DNA of 11,280 nucleotides, from the NCBI GenBank assembly GCA_934376945.1, contig CAKRPI010000076.1, positions 1 to 11,280 of the forward strand. The letters run 5' to 3'. Of this stretch, positions 95 through 11,280 are shown in pieces. Source of the stretch: an uncultured Lachnospiraceae bacterium (lineage in GTDB: Bacteria > Bacillota > Clostridia > Lachnospirales > Lachnospiraceae). Each line of letters begins with the position of its first letter. Within the stretch, counting starts at the first letter, position 1. The notes below the pieces were generated by a model. The model had not been told where the DNA came from. It was given only the letters and a program-made list of their open reading frames with translations, and made no database searches. A program made the translations under genes and the position numbers.

Positions 95-2248
95 CTATCT
101 CCGATACGCAATCTCCACCGCCCGCTTTCCGGTCAGCTCCTCGCTGCGCGCATCCGGCTGGCTGCAGCCGACGTAGAAGGTATAGGATTTTCCATCATCG
201 CGGCGGATTCCGTCCTCCCCGACTACAGTGAGGGCGCGATGGCCTACCGGAATGCGGATCTGTTTTTTCTCACCTGCATCCAGATGGATTCGCATAAATG
301 CACACAGCTCAGGGTGTTTGTCCGCATCAGCACAGTCGTGATTTTTGACGTAGACCTGGAGCACCTCATCAGTCGCATGAATTCCTGCATTGTGAACATC
401 TGCAAGAATCGTAAGTGCCTGCGGGTCAAAGTCTTTTTCGAACGATCTGCTGCCGGATTCGCACGCTGCCTCCATGCATGCTGCAATCTCCGCCCCCGTC
501 ACACATACATCCCCGTACGTCAATCCATAGCCGAACGGATACTGTGCCTTTCCTTTCATATAACGGTACGTTCTGCCTGCCATGCGGTAATCCGTAAATT
601 CCGGAAGCTCGTTAAGGCTCTCGTAAAAGGTGACCGGAAGCTTGCCGGATGGGGACACCTCTCCGAACAGCACCTTTGCTGCTGCCATACCGCCCTGCGC
701 ACCCGGATACCACAGCTGAATAACGGCATCAAAATGCTCTGATGCATAAGAAAGATCGATATCGCTGCCTGCCATCAGACACAGTACTACCGGCTTGCCG
801 GTTTCCTTGATGGCTTCCATCAGATCCCTTTGTACCTGCGGAAGCTGAAGATCGATCTTGTCACCGGATGCATAGCTGTTACCCGTATCGCCCTCTTCTC
901 CTTCCAGTGTCTCATCAAGGCCAACGCAAAGTACAACCACATCACTGTTGTCCGCCACAATCTTTGCCTCTGACAGACGGTCTGCCGGGAAAGCCAGATT
1001 CTCGGTGCGGTCACGGAAAAGCTCGCAGCCGGTGCTTGTCAGCACACGGACATCCTCTCCGAGATAATCCTGTAATCCTTCCAGTATTGTGACATAGCGA
1101 CTTGCTGTTCCGTGATAATTCCCTACAAGTGCAGCGCGGCTGTTGGCATTCGGACCGATCACGCCGATTGTCTTTATTTTTGACTTTTCAAGCGGAAGAA
1201 TGCCATTATTTTTCAGGAGAACAAAGCTCTCCTGCGCTGCCCTTTCCGCAAGTGCCAGATGTGCCGGTAATTCTACTTCTGTATATGGAATCGCATCGTA
1301 TTCACTTCCGTCGAACAGACCGAGCAGGAAGCGCGTCGTAAACAGTCTTACGGCCGCCTCCGTGATCGTTTCCTCGCTTACCAGTCCGTCCTGCACCGCT
1401 CCCAGAATATGCAGATACGTATTTCCGCAATTAAGATCACAGCCATTATTGATGGCAAGCGCTGCCGACTCTCTTGCATTTTTTGTCACCATATGATGTT
1501 CATGGAAGTCCCGGATTGCCCAGCAGTCAGAGACAAAGTGTCCCTCAAAGCCCCAGTCCTCTCGCAGGATTTTCTGCAGCTTCGGACTTCCGCAGCACGG
1601 TTCGCCATTTGTGCGGTTGTAAGCACCCATGACTGCTTCCACATCAGCCTCCTGCACGAGCGCCTGAAATGCCGGCAGATACGTTTCTTCCATATCCCTC
1701 GGTGTCGCCTCTGCGTCAAACTCATGACGCACCGCTTCCGGTCCGGAGTGCACCGCAAAATGCTTTGCACACGCTGCCGCCTTTAAAGTCTCGCCATCGC
1801 CCTGCAGTCCCTCCACAAAAGCAACGCCAAGCCGACTCGTCAGATACGGATCCTCTCCGTACGTTTCATGGCCACGGCCCCAGCGCGGATCCCGGAAAAT
1901 ATTTACATTCGGTGACCAGAAGGTCAGTCCCTTATAAATATCGCGATCCCCCTTCCCGGAATAGGCATTGTACTTTGCACGTCCTTCTGTTGCGATAACA
2001 TCTGCCATCTCCTTTACAAGATCTGCATCAAAGGTAGCTCCCATGCCAATCGCCTGCGGAAAAACCGTTGCCTGTCCGGCACGTGCCACACCGTGCAGCC
2101 CTTCATTCCACCAGTTGTAAGCCGGTATGCCAAGCCGCTTTAAGGCCGGAGCACCGTATTTGAGCTGTTCTGCCTTCTCTTCCAGTGTCATATCTGCCAC
2201 CAGCGCTTCTGCCTTTTTTCTTGCTTCTTCTCTATTCATTTGTTTCAT
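95..2248 (-). CDS. Glycoside hydrolase family 3 (beta-xylosidase / beta-glucosidase type), cytoplasmic
   Basis: This is an exo-acting retaining glycosidase that removes sugars from the non-reducing ends of imported oligosaccharides. The N-terminal barrel shows NWWNEGLHGVA (45-55), FRDPRWGRGHETYGEDPYL (118-136), KHF (162-164) and the nucleophile motif VSDCWAI, with Asp241 as the expected nucleophile. The second domain carries LLKNNGILPL (344-353), IGPNA (364-368) and LDETLEGEEGD (444-454); one of Glu449/451/452 is the likely acid/base. YPFGYGLTY (570-578) leads into a fibronectin-III-like C-terminus. The length of 717 aa is normal. The SDC form of the nucleophile motif is more typical of the xylosidase/arabinofuranosidase branch than of SDW beta-glucosidases, but the substrate is not certain. 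There is no signal peptide, so it acts inside the cell. It starts 19 bases after the permease stop. An AAGG sequence sits only 3 bases before ATG 2248, and Met4 is an alternative start. Confidence 0.95.
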   Translation of the reverse strand: MKQMNREEARKKAEALVADMTLEEKAEQLKYGAPALKRLGIPAYNWWNEGLHGVARAGQATVFPQAIGMGATFDADLVKEMADVIATEGRAKYNAYSGKGDRDIYKGLTFWSPNVNIFRDPRWGRGHETYGEDPYLTSRLGVAFVEGLQGDGETLKAAACAKHFAVHSGPEAVRHEFDAEATPRDMEETYLPAFQALVQEADVEAVMGAYNRTNGEPCCGSPKLQKILREDWGFEGHFVSDCWAIRDFHEHHMVTKNARESAALAINNGCDLNCGNTYLHILGAVQDGLVSEETITEAAVRLFTTRFLLGLFDGSEYDAIPYTEVELPAHLALAERAAQESFVLLKNNGILPLEKSKIKTIGVIGPNANSRAALVGNYHGTASRYVTILEGLQDYLGEDVRVLTSTGCELFRDRTENLAFPADRLSEAKIVADNSDVVVLCVGLDETLEGEEGDTGNSYASGDKIDLQLPQVQRDLMEAIKETGKPVVLCLMAGSDIDLSYASEHFDAVIQLWYPGAQGGMAAAKVLFGEVSPSGKLPVTFYESLNELPEFTDYRMAGRTYRYMKGKAQYPFGYGLTYGDVCVTGAEIAACMEAACESGSRSFEKDFDPQALTILADVHNAGIHATDEVLQVYVKNHDCADADKHPELCAFMRIHLDAGEKKQIRIPVGHRALTVVGEDGIRRDDGKSYTFYVGCSQPDARSEELTGKRAVEIAYRR

Positions 2249-2267
2249 CTGCCTTTCTGTAATATTC

Positions 2268-3125
2268 TCAGCCCTTCACTGCACCCGTCGTAAGTCCCTC
2301 TACGATCTGATTGCTGAACAGACAGTATACGATAACCGTCGGTGCAATTGCAATGATGATCGCCGCAAACATTTGTACATAATTTGTTGCATACGGTCCG
2401 ACGAAATACGTCAGCGTAACCGGAAGTGTTTTCTTTGCAGGATCAGAAATGAATACCATTGCAAGTAGCAGCTCATTCCAGTTACCGACGAACGTCATAA
2501 GGCCTGATACGAAAAGTCCGGTCCGGCACAGCGGCAGCGCGATTCTGAAGAAAATGCGGTAAATCCCGCAGCCGTCGATCGCTGCAGCCTCGATCAGCTC
2601 TCCCGGCATTGATTTAAAAAATCCGGTCAGAAGAAAGATCGTCATCGGAAGTGAAAATGTGATATACGGAAGCATCAGGCCGAATCTTGAGTTTGTCAGT
2701 CCAAGCTTTGCAAACCGCACAAACAAGGGAATCAGAATACAGTGCACCGGCACCATCATTCCGATCAGGAAAAATGTATGAGCTGCCTCTGCCAGTTTCC
2801 AGCGCATTCTCGCTATGGCAAACGCCGCCATCGCACCGAAAAACAAGCTGATCAGAAGCGTCACACCGCAGACCAGTGCGGAATTGACAAGTGCCACGCC
2901 AAGCTTACCAAGTGACCAGGCCTGACTGTAGTTTTCCCAGTGAAATACCTCCGGCAGTGCAAACGGCGCTGCCATTACGCCTGCGTTGTCTTTTAAGGAT
3001 ACGGAAAGCATCCACAGAAGCGGAGCCAGATACAGAACAGCCAGAAGTACCAGAAATACATAGATCACCACAATGACCGGGCTGACTGTTTTTCTTCTTT
3101 TTTTCATTACAGCACTCTCTTTCAT
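2268..3125 (-). CDS. Carbohydrate ABC transporter permease, MalG/AraQ/LplC type
   Basis: This is the second membrane subunit of a CUT1-type sugar ABC importer. Hydrophobic segments fall at about residues 17-40, 77-105, 116-137, 148-170, 201-226 and 250-272, giving six membrane helices. The EAA loop that docks to the ATPase is at 176-200 (ELIEAAAIDGCGIYRIF, then ALPL). The C-terminus ends VEGLTTGAVKG, a hallmark of MalG-like permeases. The length of 285 aa is normal. AGGAGG lies 7 bases before the chosen ATG, which supports this start over Met7. The gene begins 11 bases after the upstream permease stop, so the two are co-transcribed and probably translationally coupled. Subfamily is clear; the sugar is not readable from the permease and is inferred from the neighbouring GH3 enzyme. 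Confidence 0.96.
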   Translation of the reverse strand: MKESAVMKKRRKTVSPVIVVIYVFLVLLAVLYLAPLLWMLSVSLKDNAGVMAAPFALPEVFHWENYSQAWSLGKLGVALVNSALVCGVTLLISLFFGAMAAFAIARMRWKLAEAAHTFFLIGMMVPVHCILIPLFVRFAKLGLTNSRFGLMLPYITFSLPMTIFLLTGFFKSMPGELIEAAAIDGCGIYRIFFRIALPLCRTGLFVSGLMTFVGNWNELLLAMVFISDPAKKTLPVTLTYFVGPYATNYVQMFAAIIIAIAPTVIVYCLFSNQIVEGLTTGAVKG

Positions 3126-3136
3126 CTTCTGCCCTC

Positions 3137-4024
3137 CTATGACTCATACGTCTCTACTTTGATGACCTTCTTGACGAGCAGCGTCACGATCAGGCACATC
3201 ACAAGCAGCACGACTGATATTGCACTGGCATAGCCATACTTGAAGTAATTAAAGCCCTCTGCGTACAGCTCGGTTGCAAGTACCTCGGTACGGTGGTTCG
3301 GGCCACCCTGCGTCATGTTGTACACCAGATCGAAAAATTTCAATGAACCGATGCAGTTCAAAGAAAGGGAGGTCACCATCATCGGCCGGATCAGCGGCAG
3401 TGTGATATAACGGAATGCTGCCGGTTTGGATGCACCGTCCACGTAGGAGGCCTCATAGATGTCCTTCGAAATACCGGTGATCTGTGCCATATAAAGCATC
3501 ATATTCTGTCCGACATACTGCCACAGTGCCACAAACGCGATAACCCACATAGGAAGAACGATAAAGCCTTTAGAATCCATCAGCCACAGAGGTCCCTTGA
3601 TTCCAAACTGCGCCAGCAGCTGGTTGATGCCGATCTTCGGGTTGAACATGAATGCCCACAGAAGACCGAGCGCAGCAGAGGAAAGCACAGACGGAAGGTA
3701 ATAGATATTTTTGAATACGTTGCGCCCCTTTGGAATGTTCGTCAGGAAGACCGCCAGCAAAATACCGATCACCTGCTGTGTCACTGCTGAAAACAGCATG
3801 AAGAAAATCGAGTTTTTCAGTGCGATCCGAAACGTGGAATCCTTGAAAAACAGCTTTTTATAATTTGCCAGACCGATAAACTCCGGCGGTGTCAACGCTG
3901 CATAATCACACAGCGAATAATAGACCATCTGAAAAATCGGAATGACGAGGATCAGCACAAACATGATCAGCGCCGGTGCGATAAAAATAAAGATGGCTTT
4001 TTTGTCTTTTAATATCTTGTCCAT
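3137..4024 (-). CDS. Carbohydrate ABC transporter permease, MalF/UgpA type
   Basis: This is the first membrane subunit of the same CUT1 importer. It has a short cytoplasmic N-terminus, a first helix at about 10-32, an extracytoplasmic segment with the typical GLANYKKLF (51-59), and further helices around 73-95, 107-127, 155-180, 213-237 and 264-285. The EAA loop is at 191-210 (EASYVDGASKPAAFRYITLP). The segment NMTQGGPNHRTEVLATELY (236-254) matches the conserved MTxGGPxxxT region of UgpA-like permeases. The length of 295 aa is normal. AGGAGG lies 6 bases before ATG 4024. It is separated from the binding-protein gene by an unusually long 386-base gap containing a terminator-like hairpin, so its expression is probably lower than that of the binding protein. 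It pairs with the permease that follows. Confidence 0.96.
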   Translation of the reverse strand: MDKILKDKKAIFIFIAPALIMFVLILVIPIFQMVYYSLCDYAALTPPEFIGLANYKKLFFKDSTFRIALKNSIFFMLFSAVTQQVIGILLAVFLTNIPKGRNVFKNIYYLPSVLSSAALGLLWAFMFNPKIGINQLLAQFGIKGPLWLMDSKGFIVLPMWVIAFVALWQYVGQNMMLYMAQITGISKDIYEASYVDGASKPAAFRYITLPLIRPMMVTSLSLNCIGSLKFFDLVYNMTQGGPNHRTEVLATELYAEGFNYFKYGYASAISVVLLVMCLIVTLLVKKVIKVETYES

Positions 4025-4105
4025 AAACAGCCTCCTTTTTGTATGATGTCTAAACAGAACCCTTTTTTTTGCGGAAGCAATTGCCTCCTACATACCCTCT
4101 CCGCC

Positions 4106-4123
4106 CGGCAGTATGACCTGCCG
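4106..4123 (-). other. Small stem-loop in the binding protein-permease spacer
   Basis: CGGCAG and CTGCCG form a perfect 6-base-pair stem around a 6-base loop. There is no T-run after it in either direction, so it is not a terminator by itself. It lies about 80 bases before the permease start on the same transcript. It could protect the 5' end of a processed permease mRNA, or be chance. Confidence 0.35.
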
Positions 4124-4280
4124 CCAAATCACGTTTCCTGTTGCCAGGCGATATTCGCAATTCAGCTTCTCTTCTCTGCACTGCACCGCATATCCTGCGG
4201 CTAAGCTTTCAGAAGCGCTCCGTTTTTCCCGGAAGCCCATCGTACCAGCCGTGCCGGACAGGGCATGTAACTTATGGCAT

Positions 4281-4331
4281 AAAAAGAACCGCTGCAGGAA
4301 CAATGCGAATCCTGCATTTGTCCCGCAGCGG
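4281..4331 (-). terminator. Terminator-like hairpin between the binding-protein and permease genes
   Basis: On the minus strand, CCGCTGC (4331-4325) pairs perfectly with GCAGCGG (4295-4289). The helix continues inward with GGGA/TCCT (one G-T pair), a two-base mismatch and AATGC/GCATT, closing a 7-base loop. The sequence TTCTTTTTAT follows directly. This is a good intrinsic terminator, though the T-run is interrupted by one C. It lies 80 bases past the binding-protein stop and about 257 bases before the next gene of the same operon. Partial termination here, or 3' protection of a processed binding-protein mRNA, would give the high binding-protein to permease ratio known for ABC importers. Confidence 0.7.
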
Positions 4332-4350
4332 CTTTCCTGTCTGTCCGCTG
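4326..4350 (-). promoter_or_regulatory. Possible competing (antiterminator-like) helix
   Basis: On the minus strand CAGCGG (4350-4345) can pair with CCGCTG (4331-4326) over a 13-base loop. The second arm is the same one used by the terminator-like hairpin, so the two folds exclude each other. The geometry resembles an attenuator. The 6-pair helix is much weaker than the long terminator stem, so chance is a real possibility. Confidence 0.3.
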
Positions 4351-4364
4351 TCGTAAGGAACCGC

Positions 4365-4382
4365 CGGGCACCCAACTGCCCG
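4365..4382 (-). other. Small stem-loop just after the binding-protein gene
   Basis: CGGGCA and TGCCCG form a perfect 6-base-pair stem with a 6-base loop, about 29 bases after the stop of the binding-protein gene. No T-run follows, so it looks more like a 3' mRNA-end stabiliser than a terminator. It precedes the larger hairpin at 4289-4331 on the same transcript. Confidence 0.4.
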
Positions 4383-4410
4383 ATTGGCTCTTTAAAGCAG
4401 CCTTTTTACT

Positions 4411-5700
4411 TTATTCCCAAACATTCTCCTCATAGAAATCCTGAACGGTCTGGAATGCTTCTTCCGGTGACTGGTTGCCAAGGAAGATATCAACCATTGC
4501 GTTGTCGAAGCAGTCGCCGGCTTCTACAGATGCAAGGGACTCATTATAGAATCCAAAGGTACCGGTTGCATTTGCAAGGATATCCTGTACATATTTCAGC
4601 TGTGCCGGAGCTTTGTCATAATCAATTTCAAGGTCTTTGATGATCGGGATCTTGCCGCCAACCTCTGCGGTATATTTCTGAGCCTCTTCATCTGTAAACA
4701 TCTTCATCAGAGCGATTACTGCATCCTGGTGCTCCGTTGTTGCACTCATCAGCAGGTTGTCTGTCTTAACGATCATACGGTTCGGATCATTTGCTCCCTC
4801 GATGCCCGGGAACTGGAATACGCCGCACTTAGTCTCGAAGTCCGGATTGTTGCCGTTGATCTGAGCGATTGCCCAGGAACCCTGAATCAGGATCGCTGCT
4901 TCGCCGTTGTAGAAGTTTGCGGTAGCCTGATCATTAGAATCGCCTGCTGCTGTCTCCTGGAAGTACGCAGAGAGCTCTTTGAGCTTCTCACCGGCCTGAA
5001 CACACGTATCATCCGTCCAGTTTGCAGTATGGTCTGCGATTGCCGCAAGGTCAACACCCTGACGATCACACAGATAACCGGCTACCATGGACAGACACCA
5101 TGCCGTACCTGCGGAACAGGAAATCGGAGTATAGCCTGCGTCCTTGATCTTCTGGCAAGCATCCAGAAGCTCGGTGTATGTTGTCGGAACTTCTACTCCT
5201 GCAGCTTCAAAAATTTCGGTGTTGTAGAAGCAAAGAGCTGCGGCAAAATTCGTCGGAACTGCCATGATCTTTCCGTCATACGTCATTCTCTCAAAGATAC
5301 CGTCTGTAAATGTGGAGTACCAGTCTGCCTCCTGATTTGTCAGGATATCCGTCAGATCTGCTGCAACGCCTGCGTTTACGTAAACATCCATGTTCGGTCC
5401 CGGATTGCAGATAAACATATCCGGTGTCTGACCTGCTGCAACGAGTGCGTTGAGCTTTCCGTCATACTCCTCAAGATTCGTTGTGATCGCTGTTACGTGA
5501 TACTGTCCGTCATACTTCTCATTATAACGGTCAAGGACCTCCTTGTATCCCTTGGAGATCAGATCCTCTGTCGCCTCCAGGTCATCCCAGAACATCCAGG
5601 TGATCTCTTCCGGTCCGTCTGCCTGTACCGGTACTGCTGCAAAAAGGCTGGTTGCCATTGCTGCAGTAAGCGCTACAGAGATGAGTTTTTTCATTTTCAT
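4411..5700 (-). CDS. Extracellular sugar-binding protein of a CUT1 ABC importer (no lipobox)
   Basis: This family 1 solute-binding protein (COG1653 type) captures oligosaccharide outside the membrane and delivers it to the two permeases. Residues 1-27 form a signal peptide: MKMKK, a hydrophobic core, then VQA, with likely cleavage after Ala27. The mature part has the family pattern ITWMFWDD (33-40), a KLNALVAAGQTPDMF block near 82-96, and aromatic residues throughout suited to sugar stacking. There is no cysteine at the cleavage site, so it is not an obvious lipoprotein. That is unusual in Gram-positive bacteria, where such proteins are normally lipid-anchored. The length of 429 aa is normal. 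GGGAGG lies 9 bases before the ATG. It is the first gene of the operon, divergent from the AraC regulator. Confidence 0.95.
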   Translation of the reverse strand: MKMKKLISVALTAAMATSLFAAVPVQADGPEEITWMFWDDLEATEDLISKGYKEVLDRYNEKYDGQYHVTAITTNLEEYDGKLNALVAAGQTPDMFICNPGPNMDVYVNAGVAADLTDILTNQEADWYSTFTDGIFERMTYDGKIMAVPTNFAAALCFYNTEIFEAAGVEVPTTYTELLDACQKIKDAGYTPISCSAGTAWCLSMVAGYLCDRQGVDLAAIADHTANWTDDTCVQAGEKLKELSAYFQETAAGDSNDQATANFYNGEAAILIQGSWAIAQINGNNPDFETKCGVFQFPGIEGANDPNRMIVKTDNLLMSATTEHQDAVIALMKMFTDEEAQKYTAEVGGKIPIIKDLEIDYDKAPAQLKYVQDILANATGTFGFYNESLASVEAGDCFDNAMVDIFLGNQSPEEAFQTVQDFYEENVWE

Positions 5701-5744
5701 AGTACGTATCCTCCCTTTTTGTTGAATATATTTTTTACGTCATC

Positions 5745-5758
5745 TGATGGTTTCATCA
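5745..5758. repeat. Inverted repeat overlapping the transporter promoter
   Basis: TGATG and CATCA flank the 4-base centre GTTT. The repeat overlaps the proposed -10 box of the binding-protein promoter and its expected start site. It could be a small operator or a hairpin at the very 5' end of the mRNA. It is short enough to be chance. Confidence 0.3.
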
Positions 5759-5763
5759 TAGCA
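5755..5763 (-). promoter_or_regulatory. Candidate extended -10 promoter of the sugar-transport operon
   Basis: The minus strand reads TGCTATGAT, that is TATGAT (5 of 6 to consensus) preceded by a TGn extension. Transcription would begin near 5748, giving a leader of about 48 bases before ATG 5700. The hexamer 17 bases upstream, AAGATA at 5783-5778, is a very poor -35 box, as expected for an activator-dependent promoter. An alternative is TTGAAG (5808-5803) with TATAAA (5787-5782), but its spacer is only 15 bases. Confidence 0.45.
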
Positions 5764-5784
5764 AAGCAAATTGTATTTATCTTT

Positions 5785-5816
5785 ATAATTATTGCGTTAT
5801 GACTTCAAATAATTGC
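5785..5816 (-). promoter_or_regulatory. Candidate AraC-family binding site (direct repeat, 21-base period)
   Basis: On the minus strand GCAATTATTTG (5816-5806) and GCAATAATTAT (5795-5785) are direct repeats agreeing at 8 of 11 positions. Their starts are exactly 21 bases apart, two turns of the helix, the spacing seen for AraC half-sites. The nearer copy ends next to the poor -35 position of the transporter promoter. That is where an activator of this family would contact RNA polymerase. Confidence 0.45.
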
Positions 5817-5941
5817 TTTTGATTTTTTTGTTAAGTCGTCATTAAGTATATTTTTATAGTTTTTGCAGTGATTTTTTGTGCATGTTTTTTATTATTTTGC
5901 TTTTCATTTCTATCTATCGAAAAGTTTAGCCGGATTAAAAC

Positions 5942-5970
5942 TTGTATTTCCCTGTATTTTTTGGTATATT
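5942..5970 (+). promoter_or_regulatory. Candidate promoter of the regulator / c-di-GMP operon
   Basis: TTGTAT (5942-5947) and TATATT (5965-5970) are separated by exactly 17 bases. The -10 box is preceded by TGG, making an extended -10 element. Transcription would start near 5977 and leave a leader of about 150 bases before the regulator's ATG. This is the best plus-strand promoter in the divergent region. Confidence 0.55.
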
Positions 5971-6020
5971 AGAAAAATAGAAATCGCAATTTTTCAGACG
6001 TAATAATTTGTTACCGTGTA

Positions 6021-6043
6021 AAGCGGATATCTGCAAGCCGCTT
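6021..6043 (+). other. Stem-loop in the regulator leader
   Basis: AAGCGG and CCGCTT form a perfect 6-base-pair stem around an 11-base loop in the 5' leader of the regulator mRNA. The 3' arm overlaps a short sequence that recurs near 10630. It is a GC-rich island in an otherwise AT-rich spacer. Confidence 0.35.
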
Positions 6044-6054
6044 CGCTGCCTGTC
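6038..6054 (+). repeat. Short intergenic repeat, copy 1
   Basis: The 17-base sequence CCGCTTCGCTGCCTGTC matches 14 of 17 bases with the sequence at 10630-10646. One copy lies before the regulator/c-di-GMP gene pair and the other after it. It may be a fragment of a dispersed repetitive extragenic element. Confidence 0.35.
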
Positions 6055-6061
6055 GCCAGAC

Positions 6062-6075
6062 GGAAAACGTTTGAG
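6062..6075 (+). promoter_or_regulatory. Weak candidate catabolite-repression (cre-like) site
   Basis: GGAAAACGTTTGAG agrees at 10 of 14 positions with the idealised palindrome TGAAAACGTTTTCA bound by CcpA, including the whole central AAAACGTTT. It lies inside the transcribed leader of the regulator, where a bound CcpA could block elongation. The right arm is poor, so this is only a suggestion. Confidence 0.2.
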
Positions 6076-6125
6076 TGCCCACAGCTGGCTTGAAACGGTA
6101 ATGAAATTTTCAGAAGGGAGCCAAA

Positions 6126-6983
6126 ATGATCAAGCATTTATCCGGCATACACGAAACGGTTGCCTATCGCCCGGATACTCAAATCTGTCTTTACAACAAT
6201 GACGAGGCAGAGGACTATCCGCCGCACTGGCACACTCCGTTCGAAATCATCATGCCAACGGAAAATTCCTACCGTGCAATCTGCAGTGACCGGCAATATC
6301 AGATCCGTCAGAACGATATTCTGATCATTGCTCCCGGTACTGTACACCAGCTCTTTGCTCCGGAACACGGCGTACGCATCATCTTTCAGCCTTCTCTGGC
6401 CCAGATCGGAATTCGGGAGCTGGAGCTTCTGACTTCCAAATTTACACCGGCAATCCTTATCACACCGGAGTCCTTTCCCCGGATCCACGAACAGGTGCTG
6501 CACCTGATGCTGGAAATCCGTGATGAATATTTCAGTGATGACCCGTATTCGGAATCTGCCATTTATGCCCGCTTTCTTGAAATTCTTGTTTTGGTCGGGC
6601 GCTGCCAGGCCGAACTTACCAGGCACAGCTTTGACGCAAAAAACAGCAAGCAAAAAGAATATATGGATAAATTTCTATATATCTGCAATTATATCAACGA
6701 ACATTTTACAGAGAATCTGACACTGGAACAGATGGCATCTCTTGCCGGCTTCAGCAAATACCATTTTACACGGCTGTTCCGGCAGTACGCCGATACTTCC
6801 TTTTATAAATATCTGAACCAGAAACGCATTGAATATGCAAAATCGCTGCTCCTCGATCCGGATCTGTCCGTCATCGAGGTCGCACTGGCTTCCGGCTTTT
6901 CCAGCCTGTCGGCTTTTCTGCGCATGTTCAAACTGATCAACCACTGTACACCAACCGAATACCGAAATATGTACGAAGACTGA
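6126..6983 (+). CDS. AraC-family transcriptional regulator (cupin sensor plus HTH)
   Basis: This is a cytoplasmic DNA-binding regulator, probably the sugar-responsive activator of the divergent transport/hydrolase operon. The N-terminal half (about 15-95) is a cupin-type ligand domain with PPHWHTPFEI (32-41), QNDILIIAPGTVHQL (62-76) and IIFQPS (85-90). A helical linker follows. The C-terminal AraC DNA-binding domain has a first helix-turn-helix at about 198-223 (LTLEQMASLAGFSKYHFTRL) and a second at about 248-280, ending CTPTEYR. The length of 285 aa is typical. GGGAG lies 6 bases before the ATG. The divergent position next to a sugar operon is the classic AraC arrangement. Its stop is 12 bases from the next start, and the next ribosome binding site sits within that gap, so it is co-transcribed with the c-di-GMP enzyme. 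Confidence 0.95.
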   Translation: MIKHLSGIHETVAYRPDTQICLYNNDEAEDYPPHWHTPFEIIMPTENSYRAICSDRQYQIRQNDILIIAPGTVHQLFAPEHGVRIIFQPSLAQIGIRELELLTSKFTPAILITPESFPRIHEQVLHLMLEIRDEYFSDDPYSESAIYARFLEILVLVGRCQAELTRHSFDAKNSKQKEYMDKFLYICNYINEHFTENLTLEQMASLAGFSKYHFTRLFRQYADTSFYKYLNQKRIEYAKSLLLDPDLSVIEVALASGFSSLSAFLRMFKLINHCTPTEYRNMYED

Positions 6984-6995
6984 CAGGAGGGCACC

Positions 6996-9900
6996 ATGAG
7001 CAATCCTATTTCCATAGAAAGACATCAGAAGATCCTGGAATATCTGCAGATGATCGAAGCGATCAGTGCAAGCACCGATGATTATCTGTATCTGGTGGAA
7101 GCAGATACAGGACTGGTCCACTTTACCAATCATATCCATTTAAAATATCAGCTGCCAAGCTCCGGCAAAGAAGGATTTCCGGTCGCGGACTGGGTAAAAA
7201 CGATTTACCCGCGTGATGCAAAACCGGTTATGGAGGATCTTCAGCGGGTGTTAGACGGCACACAGCAAGATCACAACATGGAGTACCGTCTGCTGGACCG
7301 TCAGGGCAACCGTTGCTGGATCAGCTGCCGCGGCGTCGTTCAAAACGATGAGGCCGGTCAGCCGCTGATGCTGCTCGGACGCGTTTCTGATACTGTACTC
7401 GGTCAGAAAACCGACGTTCTGACCGGTCTTTTCAATGGCCGCAAATATACGGAGGATATTACCGCCAGCTTAAACCGTCATCAAAGCGGCTGCCTGCTGA
7501 TCTTCGGTCTTGACAACTTTAAAGATATCAATATCAAATATGGACGTTCCTACGGAAATCATATCCTGAAGCAATTCGCGGACGCTCTCGAGGAACACGT
7601 TGCCCCGCGTTATCCTGCCTACCGCCTCGACGGAGACCGGTTTGCACTTAATCTCTGCGGACAGGATCAGACCACCGCCAGTAAAATTTATGAACAGCTC
7701 CGTCAGGCAGTCTCCTTTTGCACAATTTCTGCCGGTTCCGTTCTTTATACCGCAGAATCCTCCTGCGATGGGGAAACACTTTACCAATATGCGGAAAGTG
7801 CGCTTGACCACGCAAAAAAAGACGGCAAAAACCGTCTGTTCTTTTTCTCTTTTGATGATTACAGGGAACATCAGAATTCACTGGAACTCCTGGCAGAGAT
7901 GCGCTACAGCGTTTCACATGACTTCAAAGGCTTCTTTCTTTGCTATCAGCCTCAGCTGCAGTGCCAGAGCTGCCGGATCTGCGGAGTGGAAGCACTTCTG
8001 CGTTTTCAATCTCCCTCGCGCGGTATCATCAGTCCGGTAGAATTCATTCCTCTGCTTGAGCAGAGCCGCCTGATCGTCCCGGTCGGCGAGTGGGTACTCC
8101 GCACTGCCCTTAAAGCCTGCAGAAAATGGCATCTTTCCCTGCCCTGTCTGCGCATCAGTGTAAACCTCTCTTATATTCAGCTTCTTGACGAGCATATCAC
8201 TGCCACGGTACTGGATATCCTTCGCGAATCCGGGCTGTCCGGTGATGCACTGACGCTGGAACTTACGGAAAGCGTCCAGCTGCAGAATTACGAATATTAC
8301 AACCGTATTTTTTATCGCTGGGAGGTCGCCGGTATCCGCATTGCAATCGACGATTTCGGCACCGGTTATTCCAGCCTCGGCTATCTGAAAAATCTCTGTC
8401 TCGATGAGATCAAGATCGACCGTTGTTCCATAACCGGTATTCAGCACAGTACCTATAATTACCGCCTGCTGCGCAATACGATCGAGCTCGCACGAAGCTC
8501 CCAGATCCATATCTGCTGTGAAGGTGTGGAAACGATGGATGAGCTTACTGTACTAAAGGAGCTTCTTCCGGATACCCTGCAGGGCTATCTGTTTTCTGCG
8601 CCCTGTACGCCCGATATTTTTGAACAGCTTTATATCAACTCGGATTCAAATGCATTCTATAATCGCCTGCAGCTGGAAGAACGCTGCCGTTCCATCGGAA
8701 CCGCTAAAAAAGAAACGCTGCAGCCCGCGCTTCGCAAAAAGTTTGATTTCGAGAGTAACTTAAGCGCATGCGCACATATATTTGCAAGAGAAAGTGAAAC
8801 AGAGACTGCCCTGCAAAATCTGCTCGCCTCTGTTGCCGGGTTTTACGGCGCCGACCATGCTTATATTTATACGCCGGTCCGCGATAATGCAAACTGGTAC
8901 TGCCGTGCCAGCTGGTATGCCGATCACGCTGTGCTTTCCAGAAAGCTGCCACAGACGCTTTCCACCAGTGTCATTGACCGCTGGATCAGTTATTTCACTC
9001 TCGGAGAATCCGTTATCATTGAAACGCCAAATGATATTCTCTCCGGTTCTCCGCTTGAACTAGAGCTTCTTCACTGTCAGAATGTCACCGGTCTGATCGC
9101 TGTTCCGATTTCCAGATGCGGACAGACCATCGGCTTTATCGGCGTCAGCAATCCCTCCGAGCATCCGGCAAATGACAACCTGCTTTTTGTCGCTGCCTGT
9201 TTTGTTGCAGACCGCCTGAACCAAAATACTTCCACGGACTGCGCAGGTGACCTTCCCGCTCTTACTTCCGCAGAAGTGCTTGCCCGCACACAGCTCGGCC
9301 TCTGGAAAATCCTGGTTCATGACGACCTGCAGCAATGTGAGCTTTTTACGGATGATATTATGCGGCGTACGCTTGGTCTTACCGCCTCTTTAACCCCTCA
9401 GCAATGCTTCCTCTACTGGTATACGCGCATCAGTGATGAATCACGTCATTACGTTGATTCCGCCCTTCAGGGCATGAATGAAACCAACCAGATCGTTCAG
9501 ATTGAATATACCTGGCAGCATCCGCTGCTTGGAAATTCTACCGTCCGCTTTCTCGGACTTCGCACAAAGGATCACAACGGCACCATCTGCCTGTGCGGGT
9601 ATCATCGTCTTCTAAGTAATATCGAACGGCTGAGCCTTCCGACCGATACGGATCAGAAACAGATTCTTGAGCTGGAATCCGCACGGAAAAATGATTTCTA
9701 CGAGGCAATCCTCTCTGAAACTATCGCTTATGCGGAACTTGACCTTGAAACCGGATGGCCGATCAATTCCGGCGGGCTGTGGGAGCATTATGAAGAAGAA
9801 TGCCGTCAGTGGAGTGAAACCTTCTTACAGGCAGTCATCCGTTCTCTCCCGCGCATCGTCGCACCGGAATACCACGATGCCTGCTGCAGATATTTTTCCC

Positions 9901-10583
9901 CGGATCAAATCTGGTCCATTTACGACAGTGCCGGTTCCGTCAGAAAATACTGCTACCGGCGCATCATCGGAAACGACTTCCACTGGGTAGAGCTGAACAT
10001 TCACGTCTTTCGCGAACACTTTACCAGCCATCGCTATGCGCTCCTTTATCTAAAGGATATCGATACGGACAAAAAACGGGAACTTGCCCAGGTATCCGCC
10101 GCAAATACAGATCCTCTCACAAAGGTCTATAACAGGCGTACCTTCCAGTCTAAAGTCGAAGCCTTCATGAATCGCTCCGACAAACCTGCCTGCGGTGCCC
10201 TGATTCTTTTCGACATTGATAATTTTAAACAGATCAATGATCTGCACGGCCATCCGCAGGGCGACGCGGCATTGCTCCGTATGACCGAGGTTCTGCAGTC
10301 TACCTTCCGCCAGCGCGATCTCATCGGGCGGCTCGGAGGCGATGAATTCCTTGCCTTTATCAAGGATGTCTCCAAACGCCAGGTTCTGAATCAGCGTATG
10401 GAAGAGCTGTCACAGGCTCTCTCCCTTACTGACGGCATTCCGATCGCCTTCAGTGCCGGAATCACATTCGTACATCAGAAAAACTTTTCCTATGAACGCA
10501 TTCTGGATCAGGCAGACCAGGCGCTCTATCACAGCAAGCAGCATGGAAAAGCCCGGACAACCTACTACGAAGATATGGTATAG
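6996..10583 (+). CDS. Multidomain cyclic-di-GMP enzyme: PAS-GGDEF(degenerate)-EAL-GAF-PAS-PAS-GGDEF
   Basis: This 1195-aa soluble protein is predicted both to make and to break the second messenger c-di-GMP. Order: PAS (about 22-135); GGDEF 1 (137-285) with DGDRF (212-216) and Gly171 where a metal-binding Asp belongs, so inactive as a cyclase; EAL phosphodiesterase (about 298-545); GAF (about 590-742); PAS-like segments (about 762-870 and 903-1025); GGDEF 2 (1030-1195). The EAL domain keeps Glu332 (EALLRF), Asn390, Glu422, Asp452/453 (DDFGTG), Lys473, Glu509, Glu512 and Gln529. GGDEF 2 is intact (LGGDEF, 1113-1118), keeps FDIDNFK (1072-1078) and has the inhibitory I-site RQRD (1105-1108). There are no membrane helices. 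It is cysteine-rich. AGGAGG lies 5 bases before the ATG. Domain edges are approximate; the PAS calls rest on fold-like patterns. Confidence 0.95.
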   Translation: MSNPISIERHQKILEYLQMIEAISASTDDYLYLVEADTGLVHFTNHIHLKYQLPSSGKEGFPVADWVKTIYPRDAKPVMEDLQRVLDGTQQDHNMEYRLLDRQGNRCWISCRGVVQNDEAGQPLMLLGRVSDTVLGQKTDVLTGLFNGRKYTEDITASLNRHQSGCLLIFGLDNFKDINIKYGRSYGNHILKQFADALEEHVAPRYPAYRLDGDRFALNLCGQDQTTASKIYEQLRQAVSFCTISAGSVLYTAESSCDGETLYQYAESALDHAKKDGKNRLFFFSFDDYREHQNSLELLAEMRYSVSHDFKGFFLCYQPQLQCQSCRICGVEALLRFQSPSRGIISPVEFIPLLEQSRLIVPVGEWVLRTALKACRKWHLSLPCLRISVNLSYIQLLDEHITATVLDILRESGLSGDALTLELTESVQLQNYEYYNRIFYRWEVAGIRIAIDDFGTGYSSLGYLKNLCLDEIKIDRCSITGIQHSTYNYRLLRNTIELARSSQIHICCEGVETMDELTVLKELLPDTLQGYLFSAPCTPDIFEQLYINSDSNAFYNRLQLEERCRSIGTAKKETLQPALRKKFDFESNLSACAHIFARESETETALQNLLASVAGFYGADHAYIYTPVRDNANWYCRASWYADHAVLSRKLPQTLSTSVIDRWISYFTLGESVIIETPNDILSGSPLELELLHCQNVTGLIAVPISRCGQTIGFIGVSNPSEHPANDNLLFVAACFVADRLNQNTSTDCAGDLPALTSAEVLARTQLGLWKILVHDDLQQCELFTDDIMRRTLGLTASLTPQQCFLYWYTRISDESRHYVDSALQGMNETNQIVQIEYTWQHPLLGNSTVRFLGLRTKDHNGTICLCGYHRLLSNIERLSLPTDTDQKQILELESARKNDFYEAILSETIAYAELDLETGWPINSGGLWEHYEEECRQWSETFLQAVIRSLPRIVAPEYHDACCRYFSPDQIWSIYDSAGSVRKYCYRRIIGNDFHWVELNIHVFREHFTSHRYALLYLKDIDTDKKRELAQVSAANTDPLTKVYNRRTFQSKVEAFMNRSDKPACGALILFDIDNFKQINDLHGHPQGDAALLRMTEVLQSTFRQRDLIGRLGGDEFLAFIKDVSKRQVLNQRMEELSQALSLTDGIPIAFSAGITFVHQKNFSYERILDQADQALYHSKQHGKARTTYYEDMV

Positions 10584-10684: not shown

Positions 10685-10740
10685 AAGAACCGCCCGGTTT
10701 CGGCCATACAGCCGGAATCGGGCGGTTCTTATTTTACTTT
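10685..10740 (+). terminator. Strong intrinsic terminator between convergent genes
   Basis: AAGAACCGCCCG (10685-10696) pairs perfectly with CGGGCGGTTCTT (10719-10730). The helix continues inward to 20 pairs, with two G-T pairs, around a 6-base loop. A T-rich tail (ATTTTACTTT) follows on the plus strand, ending the c-di-GMP operon. In the other direction the same hairpin lies 32 bases past the leuS stop but has a weaker T-run, so it may also help end leuS. Confidence 0.9.
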
Positions 10741-10761: not shown

Positions 10762-11280
10762 TTACTTTACAACAATATTTACGATCTTATTCGGTACGTA
10801 GATCTCTTTTACAACGTTCTTTCCTTCCGTCAGTGCGGCGATTCTCTTATCTGCATTTGCAATTGCAAGAGCATCCTCCTTTGAGCAGCCATTCGGAATG
10901 ACGATCGTTGTCTTCAGCTTACCATTGATCTGAACACCGATCTCAACCTTCGACTCAACGGTCTTTGTCTCATCGTACTCCGGCCATTTGGAAAGAGACA
11001 GGAAGCCTTCTCCGCCGACTGATTCCCACATCTCCTCGCAAAGATGCGGAGCAAACGGGCAAAGCAGTTTGATGAAGATGATAAGATCCTCACGACTGAT
11101 CGTGCCTGCCGTATAAATATCATTGATCAGCGTCATCAGGCATGCAATTGCAGTATTGAATTTCATTGCTTCAATATCTGCCGTTACTTTTTTGATTGCC
11201 TTGTGGAATTTTACTTCCATATCCGGATCTGCCGCATCTGTCATAATGTCGGTCAGTCCTGCCACACGCTCCAGGAAACG
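10762..11280 (-). CDS. leuS: Leucyl-tRNA synthetase, C-terminal part (partial)
   Basis: This is the C-terminal 172 residues of the cytoplasmic enzyme that charges tRNA-Leu with leucine. The frame is open to the window edge and begins RFLERVAGLTDIM, so a GTG at 11265 is an internal valine, not a start. The anticodon-binding helical domain shows FHKAIKKVTADIEAMKFNTA and LCPFAPHLCEEMW, both highly characteristic. The small C-terminal domain ends YVPNKIVNIVVK, the usual LeuS tail that contacts the tRNA elbow. The catalytic HIGH and KMSKS parts lie outside the window. It converges on the c-di-GMP gene and shares the spacer terminator with it. It is a housekeeping gene unrelated to the sugar operon. 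Confidence 0.97.
   Translation of the reverse strand, partial: RFLERVAGLTDIMTDAADPDMEVKFHKAIKKVTADIEAMKFNTAIACLMTLINDIYTAGTISREDLIIFIKLLCPFAPHLCEEMWESVGGEGFLSLSKWPEYDETKTVESKVEIGVQINGKLKTTIVIPNGCSKEDALAIANADKRIAALTEGKNVVKEIYVPNKIVNIVVK

Follow-up and report, generated by a model that had tools for sequence, protein, structure and literature searches.

The window analysed here, i.e., the whole stretch of 11,280 nucleotides of contig CAKRPI010000076.1 from an uncultured Lachnospiraceae bacterium, contains on its minus strand an operon for a CUT1-type sugar ATP-binding cassette (ABC) importer and a GH3 glycosidase. On its plus strand, divergent from the operon, a gene for an AraC-type regulator is followed by one for a 1195-residue enzyme with GGDEF and EAL domains and then by a terminator-like hairpin (Table 1). 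An earlier note on this DNA had described regulator and enzyme as lying 12 bases apart and divergent from the importer/GH3 operon, and both the gene calls and the Pfam matches confirm this arrangement. The regulator is matched by HTH_18 (82.1 bits) and HTH_AraC (54.5 bits), both above the cut-off, and its N-terminal cupin, the ligand/dimer domain of the family's sugar-binding subgroup, by AraC_binding (25.2 bits; cut-off 21.1). The subject of this report is the operator between the two transcription units, and the means it may give a sugar to set the dose of an enzyme of cyclic di-GMP (c-di-GMP) metabolism.

A scan with the AraC alignment returned 126 related stretches, the best 80 of which were taken for all 80-locus counts given here. 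These loci are mostly titled Lachnospiraceae or Blautia, together with a few from Christensenella, Oscillospiraceae, Clostridium and Treponema. The nearest among the named loci (L001; AraC 92% identical) belongs to a metagenome-assembled genome, Lachnospiraceae bacterium SUG1567, and has the gene order of the window. A divergent gene for the extracellular solute-binding protein (SBP) or for GH3 was found within 900 nt of the AraC gene in 68 of the 80 loci (59 SBP, 9 GH3). The complete set SBP-PermF-PermG-GH3 occurs in 38 loci, and in 14 further ones SBP-PermF-PermG are followed by another gene or by the contig end.

Comparison by eye of the window, L001 and a further locus, L012, revealed a common block around ATAATTATTGC before the importer. 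The half-site RCAAnWWTT is present on the importer strand in 74 of the 80 loci (shuffle mean 21.1, maximum 32). Pairs of half-sites exactly 21 bp, or two helical turns, apart, extending towards the divergent gene, were found in 65 loci, where shuffled sequences gave two or fewer at any spacing. Furthermore, 46 loci have an importer TGnTAW exactly 32 nt past the start of the proximal half-site (shuffles, again two or fewer), and in position the pair corresponds to the place where an AraC-type activator would contact RNA polymerase. Because both the divergence and the operator are conserved, the AraC-type regulator very probably controls the divergent importer, as the earlier note had supposed for the adjoining sugar operon. 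Among more distant AraC relatives (38-42% identity), the 21-bp pair was found in none of 16.

The window was also scored, at all positions and on both strands, with a half-site matrix trained on 49 loci, the window and L001 being left out. This matrix is a weak judge of leader sites, that of L001 receiving just 3.2 bits, and a few of the sites it was trained on are out of register (lowest self-score, -3.2); the pair, spacing and phase counts, both in the 80 loci and in the fresh loci described below, were made without it. In the related genome G001, the narrower pattern GCAANWATT-N12-GCAANWATT gave a zero-mismatch pair at this locus only, and 20 matches in all (17 with two mismatches) versus nine for the reversed control pattern. 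Two one-mismatch pair matches in G001 were considered as members of a wider regulon and rejected, as they lack the -10 spacing; with the two-mismatch matches in view, such a regulon may nevertheless exist. No catabolite (cre) site was found in the gap at 5701-6125, the single pattern match in the window being inside the SBP gene at 4557.

A third half-site, in the opposite orientation, lies in the regulator leader, 199 bp from the proximal half-site and 178 bp, i.e., 17 helical turns, from the distal one; the 199-bp distance is the same in L001. The third half-site lies 24 nt after TGGTAT in the promoter predicted for the regulator and roughly 9 bp beyond the transcript start predicted there. 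This promoter is absent from the hits of a consensus promoter scan. GCAATWWTT was found on the AraC strand in 44 of the 80 loci (shuffle mean 4.7, maximum 10). With the window included, 66 sequences bear the pair, and 48 of them have a third site under the rule that GCAANWWTT lie at least 100 bp from the pair and the nearest per locus be counted, by which sites at 43, 82 and 93 bp are left out. In 25 of the 48, this nearest site is 198-201 bp away from the proximal half-site, and in the other 23 it is 145-191 bp away. Relative to 199.5 bp, these 23 distances all fall within 3.0 bp of whole 10.5-bp turns, 22 of them within 2.5 bp, and none of 100,000 uniform-phase simulations matched this result. 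When nine periods between 9.5 and 11.5 bp were compared, strict sites peaked at 10.5 bp (R 0.805; summed vector 43.5 versus a shuffle maximum of 4.4), as did GCAANWWTT (R 0.806). Parsimony on a tree of 48 AraC proteins gives 11 changes of spacing class, and thus helical phasing seems to have persisted while the length changed several times independently.

Fresh loci were obtained with a different query (30, two of which were dropped as copies), and the search, with patterns and reference phase fixed beforehand, covered the 700 nt before AraC in place of the bounded gap. The pair is present in 15 of these 28 loci (shuffles 0), nine of them with the -10 at the 32-nt spacing. In all 11 loci that could be scored, the nearest third site is within 2 bp of phase (p about 1e-5).

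It might be argued that the leader half-site is a local roadblock, which would bring about simple autorepression beside the regulator start and involve no DNA loop. The closeness of the site to the predicted start would suit such a role, as would the distance from TGnTA(A/T/G) to the half-site on the AraC strand, which is most often 23-25 nt (24 cases) or 27 nt (seven cases). A roadblock, however, would not need to keep a set helical phase relative to sites some 150-240 bp distant, and the phase is nonetheless kept while the distance shifts by whole turns. We therefore consider the roadblock improbable and prefer a loop between the leader site and the pair.

Several points weigh against a phased, looping operator. 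The pattern RCAAnWWTT was relaxed after the 80 loci had been inspected, and the 28 fresh loci alone constitute a blind test; 13 of these lack the pair, as does L012. No third site was found in 18 of the 66 paired sequences, including L002 (AraC 74%) and L004. Under RCAANWWTT, which is the loosest definition, the period of best fit is 10.75 bp (0.676, versus 0.618 at 10.5 bp). The worst phase fits are those of L003 and L023, 2.5 and 3.0 bp off, respectively, and the fresh locus L196 has a second, farther site 3.5 bp off phase. Moreover, the shuffle and phase p-values overstate independence because the loci share ancestry, and groups of close relatives (e.g., the 168-bp group) inflate the raw phase counts.

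Ten AraC-side half-sites of the other orientation have no clear common spacing. Some loci, namely L011, L058, L059, L069-L072 and L074, have two or three AraC-side half-sites, mostly 20-21 or 41 bp apart, as though the distant operator, too, were repeated.

Table 1. Genes and predicted regulatory features of the 11,280-nucleotide window
Feature	Position	Strand	Basis or remark
GH3 glycosidase, beta-xylosidases closest	95..2248	-	
Importer permease, GlcU/UgpE-like	2268..3125	-	
Importer permease, GlcT/UgpA-like	3137..4024	-	
Extracellular SBP of CUT1-type sugar ABC importer	4411..5700	-	
Predicted importer -10, TATGAT, TGC before it	5755..5760	-	TGnTAW starts 32 nt past start of proximal half-site
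Promoter-proximal AraC half-site (I2-like), GCAATAATT on minus strand	5787..5795	-	Matrix 24.6 bits, rank 1 in window
Promoter-distal AraC half-site (I1-like), GCAATTATT, 21 bp from proximal	5808..5816	-	Matrix 14.1 bits, rank 2 in window
Predicted AraC-enzyme promoter, TTGTAT, 17 nt, TATATT (TGG before it)	5942..5970	+	By eye; similar in L001
Putative looping half-site (O2-like), GCAATTTTT, in regulator leader, opposite orientation	5986..5994	+	Matrix 8.5 bits, rank 4 in window
AraC/XylS-family regulator, 285 aa; N-terminal AraC_binding cupin, C-terminal helix-turn-helix pair	6126..6983	+	Pfam; 80 relatives
Enzyme, 1195 aa: PAS, degenerate GGDEF (DGDRF), EAL (motif intact), GAF, PAS-like region, GGDEF (intact, I-site)	6996..10583	+	
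Terminator-like hairpin 3' of enzyme, 20 pairs, 12 G-C	10685..10730	+	Terminator scan; similar in L001 by eye
leuS, 3' end	10762..11280	-	

Pfam matches in the enzyme are PAS_3, two GGDEF stretches, EAL and GAF, while the term PAS-like for region 750-1030 is based on alignment position and on PAS matches in relatives. The EAL residues E332, N390, E422, D452-D453, K473, E509 and Q529 are all present, and are invariant across an alignment of 11 rows. The C-terminal GGDEF is intact at 1114-1118 and is preceded by the RxxD I-site RQRD at 1105-1108, whereas the first GGDEF is degenerate at 212-216 and fails the diguanylate cyclase signature. The listed EAL residues are those of catalysis, and the RxxD motif is the inhibitory site of GGDEF domains. 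Judged by motif, the enzyme should be able both to break and to make c-di-GMP, and the first GGDEF is likely a regulatory relic. The "two-way" enzyme of the earlier note thus holds, at the motif level only, for EAL and for the C-terminal GGDEF with its I-site, but not for the first GGDEF. The gene is under purifying selection (ratio of nonsynonymous to synonymous substitution rates, dN/dS, 0.11 versus L001). The whole protein is 75% identical to the L001 enzyme, with EAL (87%) and the C-terminal GGDEF (84%) the best-kept parts, followed by the first GGDEF (79%) and the sensory regions (61-74%).

In this lineage, the position of the enzyme gene would allow its transcription together with the regulator, the AraC-enzyme gap being 12 nt in the window, with AGGAGG directly past the AraC stop codon, and 11 nt in L001. 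A terminator-like hairpin in the gap was not listed by the window scan, in which the longest such hairpin is the one past the enzyme; in L001, a GC-rich inverted repeat and a T-run are seen by eye past the enzyme. Overall the scan was near chance (14 found, 10.7 expected), and weaker terminator-like matches occur on the plus strand within the enzyme gene (7399-7426, 7820-7837 and 7983-7998). The short gap, which has no terminator and survives in L001, supports co-transcription of regulator and enzyme.

The distribution of the enzyme tells against a general system, as a GGDEF/EAL gene lies 3' of AraC in only two of the 80 loci, L001 (11 nt) and L012 (443 nt), and the L012 gap contains no RCAAnWWTT half-site on either strand. 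An operator in front of the L012 enzyme was rejected for that reason (matrix scores, -0.9 and 3.4 bits), and since the gap is so long and has no half-site, the enzyme there probably has its own promoter. The next gene past AraC is on the opposite strand in 57 loci and on the same strand in 22, with a contig end in one. Twelve of the 20 non-enzyme same-strand neighbours were scanned with Pfam; matches were to a sulfatase domain, GH5, DUF3786, a DNA polymerase IV type, a HAD hydrolase, MatE, SASA esterase (twice) and GH2, and three had no match above the cut-off. At E 1e-100, an ortholog of the enzyme was found in two of 47 genomes of L001's genus, namely the genomes of L001 and L012. An AraC of at least 50% identity is present in 13 of the 47, and 28 have a match at E 1e-60, more distant ones included. 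Genome G004, with an AraC 74-75% identical, has no enzyme ortholog, its best-scoring match being 27% identical. Family-wide, matches to the enzyme at E 1e-100 occur in at least 18 of 397 genomes, a lower bound, as the two best candidates were scored per genome. The match in G001 is full length (76%). The other 17 are 34-50% identical and mostly cover the N-terminal half, although in G368 two pieces cover nearly the whole length; no AraC was found near these 17 within the short sequences retrieved, which extend about 1.5 kb to either side. The enzyme behind AraC is a lineage-specific late add-on and no conserved system, so that the comparison of neighbourhoods in relatives, proposed in the earlier note as a check, went against conservation. 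The regulator-importer link is the old part of the locus and the enzyme link the recent part.

These data bear directly on the possibility, to which we give a substantial chance somewhat short of even, that the enzyme is a passenger which landed behind the regulator by accident. It would then be expressed at a steady low level, with activity set via its own PAS/GAF domains and no role in the response to sugar, and the AraC-importer loop may still be real. The variable gene behind AraC, mostly on the opposite strand and varied when on the same one, agrees with this possibility, as do the two-genome distribution in the genus, the 17 distant relatives with no AraC in the stretches fetched, and the faster evolution of the enzyme compared with AraC and the operon (75% versus 90-99% identity to L001). 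Less easily accommodated is that the 11-12-nt gap and AGGAGG have survived in two species with 75% identity between their enzymes. For P0005, an enzyme from a metagenome (65-66%), and P0123, an AraC from a metagenome (87%), the longest contig is in both cases 61,423 bases, which suggests, indirectly, a third linked pair.

That the enzyme belongs with the neighbouring leuS and not with the regulator is very improbable. Past the enzyme, leuS is convergent in the window, L001 and L012, but it is on the opposite strand behind the terminator-like hairpin, and none was detected within about 1.5 kb on each side of the distant enzyme relatives in 17 other genomes. In L006, leuS is found beside GH3 at the AraC/GH3 locus, and its differing position there suggests local rearrangement around leuS.

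With regard to the sugar, the best PDB match of the GH3 protein is a xylan 1,4-beta-xylosidase, and the score against Xyl3A is 738.8 bits, under the cut-off of 1250. Matches of the SBP have moderate scores, with an unspecified ABC protein as the best, followed by chitin-oligosaccharide, xylo-oligosaccharide (XOS) and other sugar binders. Because the GH3 is closest to beta-xylosidases and the SBP matches include an XOS-binding protein, XOS are our best guess, and only that, for the inducer. No ATPase gene was seen among the importer genes in the window (95-5700); for an importer of this kind, a shared ATPase of the MsmX type encoded elsewhere in the genome is expected. In Blautia producta, the available part of one account reports that several ABC-importer SBPs were raised on XOS and that no XOS genes were seen beside its xylosidases (PMC8954004).

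The c-di-GMP message is probably readable by these bacteria. Riboswitches of the c-di-GMP-I class are present in all four related genomes searched (4, 1, 1 and 1), and a PilZ protein in two of them; in the window itself, no Rfam family scored above its cut-off. Genes for the T2SSF platform were found in the four genomes and also in 13 of 14 control genomes, so their presence proves no pili. Flagellin was found in none of the four related genomes, which are drafts of unstated completeness, versus four of the 14 controls, and the stopping and attachment envisaged before are therefore unlikely to come about by switching off flagella. In each of the four genomes one c-di-GMP-I riboswitch and a T2SSF gene (type IV pilus/type II secretion platform) are separated by about 1.1-7.6 kb and lie on opposite strands (G001:C29:75260, G002:C96:53664, G003:C44:11368 and G004:C80:4318; loci L170 and L174-L176). 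The three additional riboswitches of G001 (L171, L172 and L173) precede oligopeptide ABC transporter, SnoaL/MFS-like and zinc-peptidase-like genes, as judged by eye from the first residues.

From this arrangement we think it rather probable that a sugar-responsive AraC-type regulator runs an ara-like looping switch on its own gene and on the importer operon, with the dose of the enzyme following the regulator promoter. Without sugar, a dimer would bridge the distal and the leader half-sites, and the resulting loop would hold the importer uninduced and hinder the regulator promoter. In the presence of sugar, most likely an XOS, the dimer would shift to the adjacent 21-bp direct repeat and touch RNA polymerase at the importer -35 region, whereby import would be turned on and the regulator promoter freed. 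As the leader half-site lies just past the predicted start, binding there should repress the AraC-enzyme transcript, a repression which sugar would release at least until new regulator restored it. The regulator promoter bears a half-site of the regulator itself at looping distance, and thus a route from sugar to enzyme level exists; control of the enzyme level by sugar, via a transcript that the loop should repress, is plausible. The amount of enzyme would follow the looped, autoregulated promoter, and its PAS/GAF sensory domains would decide the prevailing activity. Directly visible in the sequence are the order of the genes, the operator and its phasing, the motifs and the selection acting on the enzyme, whereas the loop, the inducer, the shared transcript, both enzyme activities and the direction of any c-di-GMP effect are inferred. 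What stands of the sugar-enzyme link suggested before is the placement of the enzyme on the regulator's transcript, with a half-site at looping distance, whereas no conserved system (2/80 loci) accompanies it. More doubtful, taken as a whole, is the general proposition that Lachnospiraceae oligosaccharide operons keep a looping switch by selection on helical phase and that one lineage has wired a c-di-GMP enzyme into the looped transcript, so that sugar sets its dose.

If true, the shifts of spacing by whole turns across gut anaerobes would constitute a natural evolutionary test of looping, and through the added EAL/GGDEF enzyme gut Firmicutes would have an unusually direct link from the regulator of one nutrient to c-di-GMP. 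With its operator defined, an entire subfamily of oligosaccharide operons becomes open to direct tests of inducers and regulons. Judged by title and abstract opening, none of the papers listed, subscription papers being mostly beyond reach, deals with AraC looping in Lachnospiraceae or with a sugar-locus transcript that joins AraC to a GGDEF/EAL gene.

Looping by AraC is a textbook mechanism, best known from E. coli. The parts of two accounts that were available describe how, in E. coli without arabinose, AraC bridges araI1 and araO2 over 211 bp on the same helical face, and how with arabinose it moves to araI1-araI2 and activates (PMC7408454, PMC4760080). The window resembles araC-araBAD, as far as these sources describe it, in its divergent regulator and operon, its two direct-repeat half-sites by the operon -35 region, and its distant half-site on the same face of the helix. 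It differs in the half-site itself, RCAAnWWTT, and in the distances of the third site from the distal and proximal half-sites (178 and 199 bp). Nor is the regulator an ortholog of E. coli AraC, as it scores 60.4 bits against the NCBIfam arabinose AraC model, whose cut-off is 208. Unlike ara, moreover, the regulator is divergent from genes for an oligosaccharide importer and GH3, an EAL/GGDEF enzyme is probably encoded on its transcript, and its looping is what we infer.

Carbohydrate loci of gut Firmicutes (Roseburia, Blautia) likewise have an AraC regulator beside an ABC importer and glycosidases, although the available portions of those accounts give no operator, loop or GGDEF/EAL gene (PMC10318527, PMC5320581). 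The AraC-family sugar regulators of Caldicellulosiruptor bescii are also similar, in that their sites are tandem repeats with large spacers, upstream of promoters, and are read as activator sites; unlike our reading of the window, the main text of that account has no word starting with "loop" (PMC8579813). The enzyme shares a GGDEF-EAL core, sensory domains and a complete EAL motif with dual-domain enzymes such as the Pseudomonas "Motility regulator" (PDB: 4rnh) and E. coli DosP. In contrast to the type of DosP and of MorA, which we take structure 4rnh to represent, it has a degenerate first GGDEF, a second and intact GGDEF at the C-terminus after the GAF and PAS-like regions, and a position behind a sugar regulator.

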